Source: a bacterium
Lineage (GTDB): Bacteria; Patescibacteriota; Saccharimonadia; Saccharimonadales; UBA4665
Assembly: GCA_021783725.1 (NCBI GenBank)
Contig: JAJXTN010000002.1
Location: forward strand, 1 to 64,000
Direction of reading: 5' to 3'
DNA: 64,000 nt
The position numbers and the translations under genes were made by a program. Positions 2,874 to 44,268 of the stretch are shown here, piece after piece (the stretch's first letter is position 1; the number at the start of each line of letters is the position of its first letter). Under the pieces are notes generated by a model. That model had not been told where the DNA came from. It worked only from the letters and a program-made list of their open reading frames with translations, and searched no databases.

Positions 2874-2928
2874 CCAAATTTTAACGACACTTTGTTAGAG
2901 TCGACATATTTATCTACTAGATACATAT

Positions 2929-2954
2929 GGGTTCAAATCCCGATCGTGGCTCCA
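2929..2954 (+). repeat. duplicated 3' end of tRNA-Thr(GGT)
   Basis: 26 bp identical to tRNA-Thr(GGT) 2851-2876 except one G-to-A change in the T-loop (TTCAAAT instead of TTCGAAT), including the encoded CCA. The 52 bp between the two copies have no ORF. This is the layout left by a small element that inserted at a tRNA 3' end, or by a tandem duplication that later diverged. Confidence 0.85.
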
Positions 2955-2989
2955 TATAGATATTAATTATTTAACAATTTGTGATTTAA

Positions 2990-39538: not shown

Positions 39539-39676
39539 GATTTTTCACCATTATACCCTATAAATCGACTAATCTGACAGGCCTAGCAGTTGTACAACAC
39601 CCAAAAATACGCTAAAATTCAATCTGTTTGACGCAGTCGGCAGACTATAAAATGCCCTAGATTCAACAATTTATAT

Positions 39677-39924
39677 TGGGGATTGGCCAAGTGGTAAGGC
39701 ACCACCCTTAGTTGCTTGCAACTAAAAAGTTATATGTGGTACTGATCAGTACCAAAAACAGTCGTCATACTATAATATGTAACAGATTAACAATCTACGT
39801 TGGGGATTGGCCAAGTGGTAAGGCACCACCCTTAGTTGCTTGCAACTAAAAAGTTATATGTGGTACTGATCAGTACCAAAAACAGTCGTCATACTATAAT
39901 ATGTAACAGATTAACAATCTACGT
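39677..39924 (+). repeat. two exact 124-bp tandem copies of the tRNA-Gln 5' region
   Basis: 39677-39800 and 39801-39924 are identical. Each starts with 27-28 nt of tRNA-Gln (acceptor 5' strand and D-arm), then hairpin TTAGTTG-CTTG-CAACTAA, the perfect palindrome GGTACTGATCAGTACC, and a stretch with TATAAT resembling the upstream tRNA promoter region. The real tRNA-Gln follows at 39925. Each copy therefore makes a tRNA-Gln 5' fragment joined to new hairpins. Confidence 0.9.
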
Positions 39925-39996
39925 TGGGGATTGGCCAAGTGGTAAGGCACCAGTTTTTGGTACTGGCATTCGGGGGTTCGAATCCCTCATCCCCAG
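39925..39996 (+). tRNA. tRNA-Gln(TTG)
   Basis: Acceptor TGGGGAT pairs with ATCCCCA, anticodon stem CCAGT/ACTGG with loop TTTTGGT and anticodon TTG, T-arm GGGGGTTCGAATCCCTC, discriminator G; CCA encoded at 39997-39999. Preceded by two partial copies of its own 5' part. Confidence 0.95.
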
Positions 39997-40036
39997 CCAT
40001 GAAAAAACCTCGGCGAAAGTCGGGGTTTTTTCATGG
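39997..40036 (+). terminator. intrinsic terminator of tRNA-Gln
   Basis: CCATGAAAAAACC pairs perfectly with GGTTTTTTCATGG, continued inward by a GC-rich stem with a GAAA tetraloop. Outer arm includes the encoded CCA. Works in both orientations by symmetry of the A/T runs. Confidence 0.85.
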
Positions 40037-40044
40037 CTCAGAGT

Positions 40045-40181
40045 GGTTCAAACTCCCGAGTGAGCATTCGGGGTGAAGATTGCCGGTGGCAATCTGCAGG
40101 GGAGCCAACTCTTGCAAACTAGTTTGCAAAGATGTTGCGACGGGCCTGCCAAAGGTAGGTCGAATCCCTCATCCCCAGCCA
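40045..40181 (+). ncRNA. structured RNA module with tRNA-like 3' end, copy 1
   Basis: 137 bp folding into four hairpins: CCCGA/TCGGG; AGATTGCC-GGT-GGCAATCT; TTGCAAAC-TA-GTTTGCAA; CCTGCC-AAA-GGTAGG. It ends with a 21-nt exact copy of the tRNA-Gln 3' end including CCA (40161-40181). A hairpin with a T-run follows. Copy 2 at 44125-44268 keeps the hairpins with different sequences. No ORF. Confidence 0.65.
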
Positions 40182-40182
40182 T

Positions 40183-40229
40183 CCTCCGTCGCAGACCTCT
40201 TTATGAGGTCAGCTATGGAGGATTTTTTG
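40183..40229 (+). terminator. terminator-like module after structured RNA, copy 1
   Basis: CCTCC...GGAGG encloses GACCTC-TTTAT-GAGGTC and is followed by ATTTTTT. Directly follows the tRNA-like CCA end. A related copy lies at 44073-44117. Confidence 0.75.
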
Positions 40230-40345
40230 TGATGAGGGATACGAACCCGTAGGGTTCGGCAGATGAGCCACAGAAACATAATTATGTTAAGTAACAAATA
40301 CGGTGTGTGGCGAAGCCTCGCGATATCCCTCACCATCTCCGAACA
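40230..40345 (+). repeat. inverted/direct tRNA-end module
   Basis: Starts with GATGAGGGATACGAACCC, close to the inverted complement of the tRNA-Gln T-arm and acceptor, and ends with GATATCCCTCACC. Inside: CGAACCC-GTA-GGGTTCG, GCCACA/TGTGTGGC and ACATAATTATGT. No ORF. Confidence 0.55.
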
Positions 40346-40360
40346 CGCCAAAGCAGAGAA

Positions 40361-40406
40361 GGACCCTGAATCAAGTTCAGGGCAGGCTCCGTCCGCTATC
40401 CCTCAT
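40361..40406 (+). repeat. 46-bp dispersed hairpin repeat, copy 2
   Basis: Identical to 2228-2273. Hairpin CCCTGAA/TTCAGGG followed by GTCCGCTATCCCTCAT; the bases after it (TCCCAGC) resemble a tRNA acceptor end again. Confidence 0.9.
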
Positions 40407-40450
40407 TCCCAGCAAGCAAATAACAAAGATTATTCTGATATAATACCGGC

Positions 40451-40699
40451 ATGAACGACGATCAATTCACAAGACTATTCAAATATATTGAAGAATTCCG
40501 TACAGAGGTGAATATTAAACTTGATCAAAAAGCATCGCAAGATAGTATGGAACGCTTGATAAGTACTCTTGATGGTTTCTTAAAACGTCTTGATGATATT
40601 GAATCCGAACAGTCAGCACGTGATTTGCAGTTTGAGCGCCTACTTGAGTGGGCTCGTGAAGTTTCCAAGAAAACCGGTATTCCTCTCAAGGACTTGTAG
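40451..40699 (+). CDS. small coiled-coil protein
   Basis: 82 residues, charged, helical, likely coiled coil (ERLISTLDGFLKRLDDIESEQ). TATAAT at 40439-40444 ends 6 nt before the ATG, so probably leaderless. Related in its core to the minus-strand protein at 40981-41187 (LISTLDGFLKRLDDIE against LINTIDDFLSRIDKYE). Flanked on both sides by tRNA-end modules. Function unknown. Confidence 0.65.
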   Translation: MNDDQFTRLFKYIEEFRTEVNIKLDQKASQDSMERLISTLDGFLKRLDDIESEQSARDLQFERLLEWAREVSKKTGIPLKDL

Positions 40700-40779
40700 A
40701 TATAAAGTTCTAACTTTGTTCACTTTTTCCAGCCATGCTAGAAGCTCATCGCAAGAAGAGCTTCTATGTGGCGGAGACT

Positions 40780-40936
40780 AGGGGGGTATAGAACCCATTG
40801 CATAGCAATTTGGGGTACGGTACAGCGAGTACGCACGCACCCGGCCTCCTAGCAGGAAGTCGGAGGACACTCTGACGCGGAAATGGACCCTGAATCAAGT
40901 TCAGGGCAGGCTCCGTCCACTATCCCTAACCCCCAT
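40780..40936. repeat. tRNA-end module with 46-bp repeat, copy 3
   Basis: Left end (from about 40771) reads on the minus strand as a tRNA 3' end with T-arm GGTTCTATACC and final CCGCCA. Right end is the third 46-bp repeat (40885-40930, diverged to ACTATCCCTAAC). The right end ATCCCTAACCCCC partly matches the inverse of the left end. No ORF. Confidence 0.55.
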
Positions 40937-40980
40937 TAAATATACGGAGTAAGTTTTCGAATTCGCATTTTCGCTATCTG

Positions 40981-41187
40981 CTAAAGGACGGACCTCGGGT
41001 TTTCAGTTTCATATTTATCGATTCTGGACAAGAAGTCATCAATTGTATTTATTAGATATTCGCATTTCCGATCTAAGGTGTCTAGTATTTTATTTACTTC
41101 TGTAAATTGATTGGAGCCCTCACTCATGAACTCTTTAACAATGCCTATGACTCCATCAATGTCTGTCAGTCTTGCCGCTTCGCTCAT
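40981..41187 (-). CDS. small coiled-coil protein, paralogue
   Basis: 68 residues, charged, helical. Core EYLINTIDDFLSRIDKYETEN aligns with the plus-strand protein at 40451-40699. Its gene sits between two tRNA-end modules. Start at ATG 41187. Function unknown; could be an adaptor or regulator. Confidence 0.55.
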   Translation of the reverse strand: MSEAARLTDIDGVIGIVKEFMSEGSNQFTEVNKILDTLDRKCEYLINTIDDFLSRIDKYETENPRSVL

Positions 41188-41204
41188 GCCGAAATTGTAG
41201 CATC

Positions 41205-41264
41205 ACTCGCCGCCCAAAGTTTTCGGGCGTCCGAAGGACGAGGCGAATCCCTCCGTTCCAGCCA
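41205..41264 (+). repeat. orphan tRNA 3'-end module
   Basis: Hairpins CGCCC/GGGCG and GTCC-GAA-GGAC precede CGAATCCCTCCGTTCCAGCCA (41244-41264), which looks like a tRNA T-arm, acceptor 3' strand and CCA without any tRNA 5' half. Confidence 0.6.
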
Positions 41265-41419
41265 TATAGAACGCAAAGGGTCTTCTAATTCATTGTAGCT
41301 CTTGTATAGGGTCGTTAATATTAATTTGGTCTTTAGTATTGCACGCACACCTCATTAAGTTACGAGTTTATTAAAGTTTTTTCAGCTATCGCTAGCATAA
41401 GCCCTATAATAGATCTTGT

Positions 41420-43921
41420 ATGATTTGGTACAAAGAAGACACAGAACGACTATATGAAATACTGGAAACGTCAGAAGAGGGGCTTTCAAGGCAAGAAGCT
41501 TCAAGCCGCCTGAAAAAATACGGCCAAAACCAGCTAGCTATCAAAAAGGACTCGTTTTGGAAGATACTTTTAGAACCTTTCAGGAATATTTTCGTAGTTG
41601 TTCTTGTTGCGGCCGCAATAGTCAGTCTATTAAGCCATGAGTACTTAGACGCAGTTATTATTGGGATTATTATAGCCGTAAACACCTGTATTTATTATTC
41701 CCAGCAATACGCCACCACAAGAGTCCTGAGGACTCTCAGGGAACATAGCGTTCAGCCGGTTACAGTAATCAGGGGCGCTAAAGAACATTCCATTTCTTCC
41801 GTTAATCTTGTGCCAGGAGATATTATCGTATTGAACGAAGGCGAAAGAGTTCCTGCTGACGCGCGCGTTGTTCATACGGATAATCTACAAGCCAATGAAT
41901 CGTCACTTACTGGTGAGTCCGTCCCCGTTCATAAGCATGCTTCAACGCTTGAATCATTAAAACAAATCTACAAGCAAGATAATATGGTGTTTCAAGGAAC
42001 ATACATACTGGCAGGATCGGCTAAAGCGTTGGTGGTCGAGACGGGCGGCAGGACAGAATTTGGCAAGATTGCCGAACTGGCCTCTGACGATCATTCAAAA
42101 AGTCCCGTTCAGGCAAAGACTGATCAACTTATAGCGCTTCTGGTAAAAGTAGTTGGAGTGCTCTCCAGCTTAGTGTTTGTGTTGTCATTAGCTAGAGGGA
42201 TTCCCCCGGGAGAAGCATTGCGCTTTGTGCTTTCACTAACTGTGTCGGCGGTTCCCGAAGGGCTGCCAGTTGCGATGACGGTCATCATAGTTTTAGGGAT
42301 GAGGCGCATGGCGAAGCAAAAAGCCTTGGTTCGGAACTTTAAAGCAATAGAAGACATCGGTCTAGTGACTACTATTGCGACTGACAAAACCGGCACACTC
42401 ACAAAAAATCACCTTACCATCGTGGATAGCTGGTCATTGGATGGCACCGACGTTATGAATGTAGCAGAGCAAACTATAGATACAGAGGCGACGCTCGCCG
42501 ATCCGCTCGATGAAGCAATTAAAGAAAACACCAGCAAGCACTCCGACTATAAGATAGACGAAATATATCCTTTTGACATAGCTCTTCGAATGAGCGGAGC
42601 GTATATTAAGCGCGACGGGGTCGTCTATATCAAGGGTTCGCCGGAACATGTCTTAGCCAAGTCCCGCGTTACAAAAGAACAACATCATGCCGCTGAATCT
42701 GCCATGCATGAGCTCGCATCAAAGGGCTACCGAGTTATTGCATTCGGGAAATATGAACCCTCTGGCATGCCGCCTAAAGACCTGAGCGTTATAAAAAATA
42801 ATGAGATAGCCTTTGTAGGCTATCTGGCGTTCGCTGACGAGCTGCGCCCTGAAGTGGCACGGGCAATTAGTGCCGCGCATGAGGCCGGTATTAGTGTTCG
42901 GCTAATCACTGGCGACCATTATGAAACTGCCTACAACATAGGAAGACAAATCGGACTAGCAAATCTCCCCAACCAAGTCATACAGGGTACCGAACTACCC
43001 GAAGAGACACGCGCTCTAGCTCTAGCAATACAGAACAAGTCAATTTTCGCTCGAATATTACCCGAAGATAAATTTAGAATCCTAAAAGCCCTAAAGCAAA
43101 CAGAGATTACGGCAATGACTGGCGACGGCGTGAATGACGTCCCCGCTCTTGCAAACGCACATGTCGGCATAGCCATGGGGTCAGGGAGTGATATAGCCAA
43201 AGATGCGGGAGGTATTGTACTGCTTGACGACAACTTTGCCACCATAATTAAGGCCATAGCCGAAGGACGTAAAATTTTTGATAATATCCGACGAATGCTG
43301 TTTTATCTACTATCTTCGTCACTTGGTGAAGTACTTACAATGATTGGCGCCTTACTATTTGGGTTACCCCTACCTGTGACCGCCATTCAGATTTTATGGA
43401 TTAATCTTGTTGCAGACACCGCAATGGTATTACCCCTAGGCCTAGAGCCCGAAGAAGATGGACACATGAAGCGACCGCCAAGACGACCTAAAGACCCGCT
43501 ACTTAACAAAATGCTGCTTAGCAGAATGGCGATCATTGCACTCACCATGGCCGCTGTTACACTTGCTGTCGTGTTCGTGCTTAAGCAACAAGGCCACGAC
43601 ACCGCCTACATACAAACGGTTGCTTTCATGACGTTGATTGCCGCCCAATGGATGAATGCATTCAATGCCAGAAGCGAATACAATTCATCCTTCAGTAGAA
43701 TTAAGAAAATTAATCACGGGTTGATAGTCGGTTTTGCTCTCGCATTTGGGTTGCAAATGCTCGTCATTTTTGGGCCGCTAATGGCTGCCTTTGACATTCA
43801 AAGTGTTCCTGTACTGACCTTAATTTGGTGCTCAGGTGCCATGGCACTGGCTATTTTGGCCGCCTCAGAACTGCATAAATCGATAGTTCGATCTGTTTTA
43901 AGAAGAAGCCTTAGAACATAA
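41420..43921 (+). CDS. P-type cation-transporting ATPase (P2-type)
   Basis: 833 residues. N-terminal cation-ATPase domain (SRQEASSRLKKYGQNQL), TGES (164-167), PEGLP in M4 (279-283, as in calcium-type pumps), phosphorylation site DKTGT (Asp 322), hinge TGDGVNDVPAL, about ten membrane helices. PEGL plus no CPC motif points to Ca2+ or another light cation, not copper. TATAAT ends 9 nt before the ATG. Sits between tRNA-end modules, which fits horizontal gain, but this is inference. Confidence 0.9.
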   Translation: MIWYKEDTERLYEILETSEEGLSRQEASSRLKKYGQNQLAIKKDSFWKILLEPFRNIFVVVLVAAAIVSLLSHEYLDAVIIGIIIAVNTCIYYSQQYATTRVLRTLREHSVQPVTVIRGAKEHSISSVNLVPGDIIVLNEGERVPADARVVHTDNLQANESSLTGESVPVHKHASTLESLKQIYKQDNMVFQGTYILAGSAKALVVETGGRTEFGKIAELASDDHSKSPVQAKTDQLIALLVKVVGVLSSLVFVLSLARGIPPGEALRFVLSLTVSAVPEGLPVAMTVIIVLGMRRMAKQKALVRNFKAIEDIGLVTTIATDKTGTLTKNHLTIVDSWSLDGTDVMNVAEQTIDTEATLADPLDEAIKENTSKHSDYKIDEIYPFDIALRMSGAYIKRDGVVYIKGSPEHVLAKSRVTKEQHHAAESAMHELASKGYRVIAFGKYEPSGMPPKDLSVIKNNEIAFVGYLAFADELRPEVARAISAAHEAGISVRLITGDHYETAYNIGRQIGLANLPNQVIQGTELPEETRALALAIQNKSIFARILPEDKFRILKALKQTEITAMTGDGVNDVPALANAHVGIAMGSGSDIAKDAGGIVLLDDNFATIIKAIAEGRKIFDNIRRMLFYLLSSSLGEVLTMIGALLFGLPLPVTAIQILWINLVADTAMVLPLGLEPEEDGHMKRPPRRPKDPLLNKMLLSRMAIIALTMAAVTLAVVFVLKQQGHDTAYIQTVAFMTLIAAQWMNAFNARSEYNSSFSRIKKINHGLIVGFALAFGLQMLVIFGPLMAAFDIQSVPVLTLIWCSGAMALAILAASELHKSIVRSVLRRSLRT

Positions 43922-44072
43922 AGGCTAGACTAAAGAACTGTCACCAACAGCACAGAGCTATAAATAACGAAGTTTATCCAACAAAAAGCGAGACATCCGC
44001 TACATAGTTATTCCCAATCTCATTCGTCTCATTTAGTCCTTAAAAAGGTTTCTGACCCGTATGCTCAGCCAG
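43922..44072. other. gene-free spacer before structured module copy 2
   Basis: About 150 bp with no ORF. The last bases (GCTCAGCCAG) again look like a truncated tRNA acceptor end just before the terminator-like module. Confidence 0.4.
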
Positions 44073-44117
44073 CCTCCGTCGCAGACCTTTTATCAGATCA
44101 GCTATGGAGGATTTTTA
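44073..44117 (+). terminator. terminator-like module, copy 2
   Basis: CCTCCGTCGCAGACC and AGCTATGGAGGATTTTT match 40183-40229; the inner stem has lost part of its pairing. Preceded by AGCCA, followed by structured module copy 2. Confidence 0.65.
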
Positions 44118-44124
44118 TTGTGAA

Positions 44125-44268
44125 GGGTTAAACTCCCGAGTGAGCATTCGGGGTGATCCGGCTTTCATCCTGAAGGCCGGAGCAAGGCAATCTTCTCTTG
44201 AAAGCTATGCTTTCAAAGATGAACTCGCGGGCCTGCAGAAGGTAGGTTGAACCTCTAATCCCCAGCCA
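44125..44268 (+). ncRNA. structured RNA module with tRNA-like 3' end, copy 2
   Basis: 144 bp. Hairpins: CCCGA/TCGGG (identical to copy 1); CCGGCTTTCA-TCC-TGAAGGCCGG (unrelated sequence, same place); TTGAAAGC-TAT-GCTTTCAA; CCTGC-AGAAG-GTAGG. Ends in GAACCTCTAATCCCCAGCCA, a diverged tRNA-Gln-like 3' end with CCA. The helices differ from copy 1 by compensating changes. Confidence 0.65.

Follow-up and report, generated by a model that had tools for sequence, protein, structure and literature searches.

A folded sequence in partial tRNA copies of Saccharibacteria, probably a small mobile element entering tRNA loops

Structured modules beside a tRNA-Gln gene

The window considered here comprises 64,000 nucleotides at the start of contig JAJXTN010000002.1 (assembly GCA_021783725.1) from a bacterium of the order Saccharimonadales (Saccharibacteria). 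Downstream of an intact tRNA-Gln gene it contains two structured modules with common order and ends (73% identity over 143 nt), located where a first-pass annotation had placed them (40045-40181 and 44125-44268). Each module consists of a core and of flanking pieces of tRNA-Gln. The fold of this core, its covariation, its multicopy spread, its tRNA neighbourhood and orientation, the replacement of two tRNA bases and the presence of near-identical cores at different tRNAs are demonstrated; taken as a whole, the core, about 86-95 nt long, is probably a mobile element of the non-autonomous kind, which enters tRNA loops with a two-base replacement. In general, cores sit in partial tRNA copies that flank an intact tRNA gene, almost always in tRNA sense: in R copies, which lie downstream of the gene, the 3' half of this tRNA comes after the core, while in L copies, which lie upstream, the 5' part of that same tRNA precedes the core. 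The features of the locus are the following.

39665..39912, + strand: two 124-bp tandem L-type units, recognised as repeats and classed as L-type without core
39925..39999, + strand: intact tRNA-Gln (TTG), neighbour of the R-type units (ARAGORN and Rfam)
40000..40038, + strand: terminator-like hairpin of tRNA-Gln, an inverted repeat whose 5' arm begins at the CCA end
40045..40073, + strand: T-arm of tRNA-Gln in antisense (40045-40059), followed by a small loop and, in sense, the variable region and the 5' strand of the T-stem as far as the insertion point; assigned by sequence comparison with tRNA-Gln and 47 R-type copies
40074..40159, + strand: putatively mobile structured core, copy 1 (TGA...GTAGG), composed of the S1 hairpin, the S2/S3 hairpin, which has two bulges of one base each, and the S4 hairpin
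40160..40181, + strand: second tRNA-Gln 3' half (T-loop to CCA), a direct repeat (100%) of 39978-39999, from which the bases GT are absent relative to the intact tRNA
40181..40228, + strand: terminator-like hairpin 3' of copy 1 (fold z -6.9), with related hairpins elsewhere in the genome
44056..44123, + strand: decayed tRNA 3' end and terminator-like hairpin 5' of copy 2 (repeats; fold z -2.6)
44125..44153, + strand: T-arm in antisense, loop and 5' strand of the T-stem, belonging to copy 2 (repeat, 94% to copy 1)
44154..44246, + strand: copy 2 of the putatively mobile structured core, in which the S1 hairpin is longer (covariance model match 44148-44256, 82.4 bits, E 2.9e-24)
44247..44268, + strand: decayed tRNA-Gln 3' half after copy 2 (repeat, 78%)

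The boundaries of copy 1, which is matched by the covariance model at 40068-40169 (109.7 bits, E 2.4e-33), were set from pairwise alignments together with the two-base gap relative to the tRNA. Two structured copies are thus present as first described, while the element proper occupies only 40074-40159 and 44154-44246; therefore, the 5' end common to both modules, GGTTCAAACTCCCGAGTGAGCATTCGGGG, is also derived from tRNA. Likewise, the tRNA-Gln-like 3' end with CCA is present in both modules but belongs to the flanking tRNA-Gln, outside the element, and the terminator-like hairpin reported after copy 1 was recovered. The proposal of a small RNA taking advantage of tRNA 3' processing was not supported: the CCA end differs with the adjoining tRNA (Gln, Lys, Arg, Val, Ser, Leu and others), L-type copies are devoid of any CCA end and R copies lack a 5' acceptor strand, so that the sequence argues against a dedicated small RNA with a tRNA-like CCA end.

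The host genome of the window contains 8 core copies according to the covariance model. The tandem L-type units upstream of the intact gene comprise the tRNA-Gln 5' part with its anticodon arm broken by an unrelated hairpin, and also hold an antisense anticodon arm and a -10-like TATAAT. A P-type ATPase gene (window 41420-43921) lies between both modules, like cargo between two tRNA-Gln 3' ends.

Fold, occurrence and insertion sites of the core

The core has no open reading frame and forms three hairpins, S1, the long bulged S2/S3 and S4. It starts with a TGA preceded by G and ends together with S4, where GTAGG, GTGAC, GTGAG, GTGGG and other 3' ends occur. The S1 stem of 8 bp has an invariant flank, GTGA/GCAAGG, the long S2/S3 hairpin contains two bulges of one base each, and S4 carries a triloop that is mostly GAA or AAA and a closing base pair of several kinds. 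A G-U wobble pair in S4 is conserved in 88 of 98 scored copies, and therefore the sense strand is indicated as the one that folds.

Both modules of the window fold better than dinucleotide shuffles (z -2.4 and -2.6), which is modest for a single sequence. Between them, the exchanges noticed in the first-pass annotation were confirmed, with AGATTGCC/GGCAATCT versus CCGGCTTTCA/TGAAGGCCGG in helix 2 and TTGCAAAC/GTTTGCAA versus TTGAAAGC/GCTTTCAA in helix 3. BLAST searches in 99 relatives yielded many further copies, 31 of which entered a MAFFT alignment made without regard to structure (the L029 row has one A too few near its 3' end and the last three row labels are displaced, which leaves the fold counts unaffected). 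In this alignment 94% of the cells are paired and both sides have changed in 28 of the 36 pairs, whereas pairing falls to 31-48% when the partners are slid by 1-3 columns; cells with a double change number 201, against 54 in shuffles. A model-fitted alignment of 108 copies, which leans towards the model by construction, agrees with the common fold. Further copies thus keep the helices rather than losing them, which strongly supports the earlier claim that a folded form is under selection.

Covariance model matches were obtained in 97 of the 295 genomes of the order, with up to 36 copies per genome and with 21 and 17 in two others (G065 and the closed chromosome G093), while outside the order 380 genomes across the phylum gave only two weak matches. 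The named hosts are nearly all Saccharibacteria; one core (L129) lies in contig JAGRJD01, whose Thiothrix label probably reflects misbinning. A degenerate pattern scan of IMG/VR revealed no core, and scans of GTDB and IMG/VR with the exact 5' motif were empty because that motif is specific for tRNA-Gln. Rfam 15, including a search at permissive threshold, returned only tRNA and clearly sub-threshold or chance matches to the modules, and no description of the element was found in the literature searched, which bears out the earlier statement that no family matches.

Among 172 distinct copies, 125 have a same-strand tRNA within 150 nt, 78 of them downstream of it (median distance 73 nt) and 47 upstream (median 40 nt), as opposed to two that are near an opposite-strand tRNA only; many of the remaining copies are outer members of arrays or lie at contig edges. 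On the closed chromosome 15 of the 17 copies are near a tRNA, where chance would predict about 1% per copy. The units have a near-constant length of about 150-300 nt. Nearly every R unit carries, next to the struck arm, a short copy of that arm in antisense, and this antisense arm resembles its own tRNA over others (mean score 12.2 versus 7.6 for R, 8.7 versus 6.6 for L copies); by inspection it mirrors the arm in its intact state, with no core in it. One core, downstream of tRNA-Phe (L112), departs from the sense rule, which is rare, and is antisense to the adjoining tRNA.

When both flanks were aligned to the adjoining intact tRNA, which was feasible for 86 copies, exactly two tRNA bases proved to be replaced, between a G and the 3' flank, in 84 of them, a count that leaves a one-base choice at the S4 end. 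The lost pair of bases varies (GT, TT, CA, CG, AA, AG, GG, TG), and the sites are mostly in the T-loop but also in the anticodon loop, in the D-loop and at position 26; moreover, cores are nested in the S4 hairpin of other cores. Rarely, an otherwise whole tRNA gene is interrupted by the core, as seen for a tRNA-Gly (copy L145 in genome G078, which retains an intact tRNA-Gly elsewhere) and a tRNA-Pro (copy L109). In one neighbourhood (L110) several cores share one part of a pseudo-tRNA, in its D-loop and anticodon loop.

Movement of the core and competing explanations

Cores of 95-99% identity adjoin different tRNAs, on either side, in different bacterial families, and their homology stops at the element ends. 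For instance, cores 98% identical are found at tRNA-Gln in genome G067 and at tRNA-Arg in genome G079, with the homology ending at TGA...GTAGG/GTGAC. The nearest relative of a core resides in the same genome in 25 of 117 cases (3.1 expected), and across genomes it shares the tRNA and the side in 12 of 113 (4.8 expected); the core has thus spread within and between genomes, and its vertical signal is weak. Near-identical cores at different tRNAs in different genomes, together with nested cores, therefore argue for a mobile element, a reading that the first-pass annotation had offered as one of two and that multicopy, patchy occurrence strongly supports as well.

According to the mechanism we favour, the core would enter loops of tRNA sequence next to a G, nearly always in tRNA sense, in place of exactly two bases, with the T-loop as the main target and the anticodon loop, the D-loop, position 26 and the S4 hairpin of other cores as further ones. 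Its three hairpins and the stem at the landing site could together form a four-way junction, and the conserved fold may be what is recognised and moved, presumably as a folded single sense strand, most likely of DNA, by an enzyme acting in trans. Transfer as a single folded DNA strand is our best guess. The insertions visible today would be those that left a working tRNA, with the core in a partial copy beside the intact gene, and the flanking sense-antisense-sense tRNA copies might stem from fold-back template switching at hairpins or from a step of the insertion itself.

Candidate movers are RAYT-type Y1 transposases, which act on folded single-stranded DNA. Such genes (best match NF047646, sub-threshold) occur in 15 of 32 element-bearing versus 6 of 67 genomes that lack the element (p 4e-5, before any phylogenetic correction). 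Three RAYT-like genes of one genome (G000:C11:33989, C12:35836 and C17:32137; L217-L219) each have their own flanking palindrome, such as GCTCAAGGTCCGACCTTGAGC. An autonomous version of the element was also sought: among 233 5' halves, nine had no 3' part in reach, and a gene lay between in none.

Several points weigh against this account. The RAYT association carries no phylogenetic correction, RAYT is absent from G065 and the closed G093 despite their 21 and 17 copies, and in the 20 RAYT neighbourhoods scanned the genes are flanked by their own palindromes rather than by the core, which occurs in just four of these neighbourhoods and never flanks the gene as a pair. No filled and empty site pair between close strains was found in a comparison within genus g130, because each species is represented by one genome in the collections and neighbours within a genus are about 68% identical. 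The initial search started from a module containing tRNA 3' sequence and may favour tRNA-linked copies, and the latitude at the S4 end also tempers the two-base rule. Finally, several unrelated inserts fill the same kind of half-tRNA unit, and the units might be primary, with the core merely one passenger.

This last point leads to the strongest competitor, in which the half-tRNA units serve the host as regulatory structures in its tRNA operons, setting an antisense against a sense arm, and the core is one exchangeable apical domain kept for its function. The tight spacing to the tRNA, the antisense arms in nearly all R units, the architecture shared by several unrelated insert families and the adaptation of the T-stem 5' strand to its 3' strand in some units all speak for such a role, which we nevertheless hold to be unlikely in view of the patchy occurrence, the decay of copies far from tRNAs (window copy 2), the nesting of cores and the 98% identical cores in different families.

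Improbable, in our estimation, is the idea that the core works at the RNA level, as a mobile RNA that enters tRNA transcripts by reverse splicing or RNA repair and is then copied back into DNA. The strict sense orientation, target sites that are all single-stranded in the folded tRNA and the conserved G-U pair would fit, but a reverse transcriptase (PF00078) was detected in only 8 of 40 element-rich genomes and RtcB in 0 of 63, and therefore an RNA route through these enzymes is not general; other RNA ligases, or a reverse transcriptase from elsewhere, could serve instead.

A further proposition is that a mobile structured nucleic acid recognises tRNA hairpin loops as such and swaps exactly two loop bases for itself in one orientation, with the struck gene regenerated alongside, which would amount to an undescribed transposition chemistry, possibly at the RNA level; this we put forward tentatively, as somewhat doubtful.

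It seems quite improbable that the units are att-site remnants of integrative elements that target tRNA genes by tyrosine integrases. Duplicated tRNA 3' halves at tRNA genes and the roughly 4 kb of cargo between window copies 1 and 2 are reminiscent of such elements, yet the units have a near-constant length and an integrase gene within none, the insertion points include the D-loop, the anticodon loop and the core itself, IMG/VR gave no match, and an autonomous integrase element bounded by cores was not found; inspection of the open reading frames between the two window copies likewise revealed no integrase. Least credible of all is a tRNA intron that is spliced out, which the location in tRNA loops and the rare complete interrupted genes (tRNA-Gly, tRNA-Pro) might suggest and which we rejected on the two-base loss and on joined-flank tests: since the lost bases vary in identity, splicing is unable to restore the interrupted tRNAs, both tRNA halves occur in only 2 of 172 copies, and the tRNA-Gly is kept intact elsewhere in G078.

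Relation to known elements and further inserts in tRNA genes

The non-autonomous element favoured here is set apart from introns, miniature inverted-repeat transposable elements (MITEs), REP sequences, integrative elements and Rfam RNAs, as each tested family fails a defining feature. REP or GTAG palindromes moved with RAYT genes resemble it in being small, non-coding, hairpin-forming and multicopy, some cores end in GTAG, and RAYT-like genes are commoner in core-bearing genomes. However, a REP is a single palindrome of 20-40 bp (PMC3733652), whereas the core measures 86-95 nt with three hairpins, has the GTAG end in a subset only and resides in tRNA loops in sense only, and the RAYT genes here carry other palindromes. 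Like MITEs and other non-autonomous DNA transposons, the core is short, non-coding and would be moved in trans, but it has neither terminal inverted repeats nor a target duplication (its ends are TGA... and ...GTGAC/GTAGG), and two target bases are lost. Elements of the IS200/IS605 type also have no terminal inverted repeats or target duplication and possess subterminal hairpins, features to which the core conforms; it differs in having no internal transposase, in a target that is a hairpin loop sharing only a G, and in the replacement of two bases. Such elements are described as acting on folded single-stranded DNA (PMC6006769).

In Thermoproteales, similar intervening sequences occupy several positions of different tRNA genes (PMC4090602), a pattern to which the core is alike in its similar inserts at several positions of different tRNA genes. 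These archaeal introns are, in contrast, cut at a bulge-helix-bulge motif, so that the tRNA matures from the interrupted gene, while the core costs two tRNA bases, has an intact gene alongside and shares no common sequence recorded in Rfam. Phages, integrative and conjugative elements (ICEs) and other integrative elements that target tRNA genes likewise result in an intact tRNA accompanied by an additional tRNA 3' end; the core units differ in measuring a few hundred bases, in having no integrase, in 5' part duplications and in several loop positions. Group I and II introns and the other RNAs of Rfam 15 gave no covariance model match beyond tRNA and clearly sub-threshold matches. A likeness to the twister-sister ribozyme (GCAAGG) was considered and dropped on account of the differing strand order and conserved bases.

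If a RAYT or an IS200-type enzyme proves to be the mover, the element would constitute a variant within a known kind. If the favoured account holds, a type of bacterial mobile element that targets tRNA hairpin loops by base-exact replacement would exist in this lineage of tiny genomes. The covariance model and the sharp insertion signature make the movement of small gene-less folded sequences testable. The element also exposes a wider habit of these genomes, in which tRNA genes are flanked by half-tRNA units with several unrelated structured inserts.

Such half-tRNA units are indeed a wider feature of these genomes, and several structured sequences have entered them: four of the five tRNA genes in the window have a second 3' end or a T-loop remnant downstream, and in most cases the insert bears no relation to the core. 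A second type of structured insert in tRNA T-loops, likewise unrelated, GGTTCG-GCA...GAAGGAC..GTCCGCTATCCC, which is present in other genomes too, occurs in the window at 40229-40413, at about 40780-40935, after tRNA-Tyr (about 2029-2185) and after tRNA-Trp (minus strand, below 10944). Its terminal hairpin contains, as if nested, the palindrome CCTGAATCAAGTTCAGG at 40377-40410 and 40887-40920. Elsewhere, an R unit carrying a plain hairpin insert was noted (L257 neighbourhood), and after tRNA-Thr(GGT) its T-arm and 3' half occur once more, unbroken and with no antisense part (window 2877-2955).

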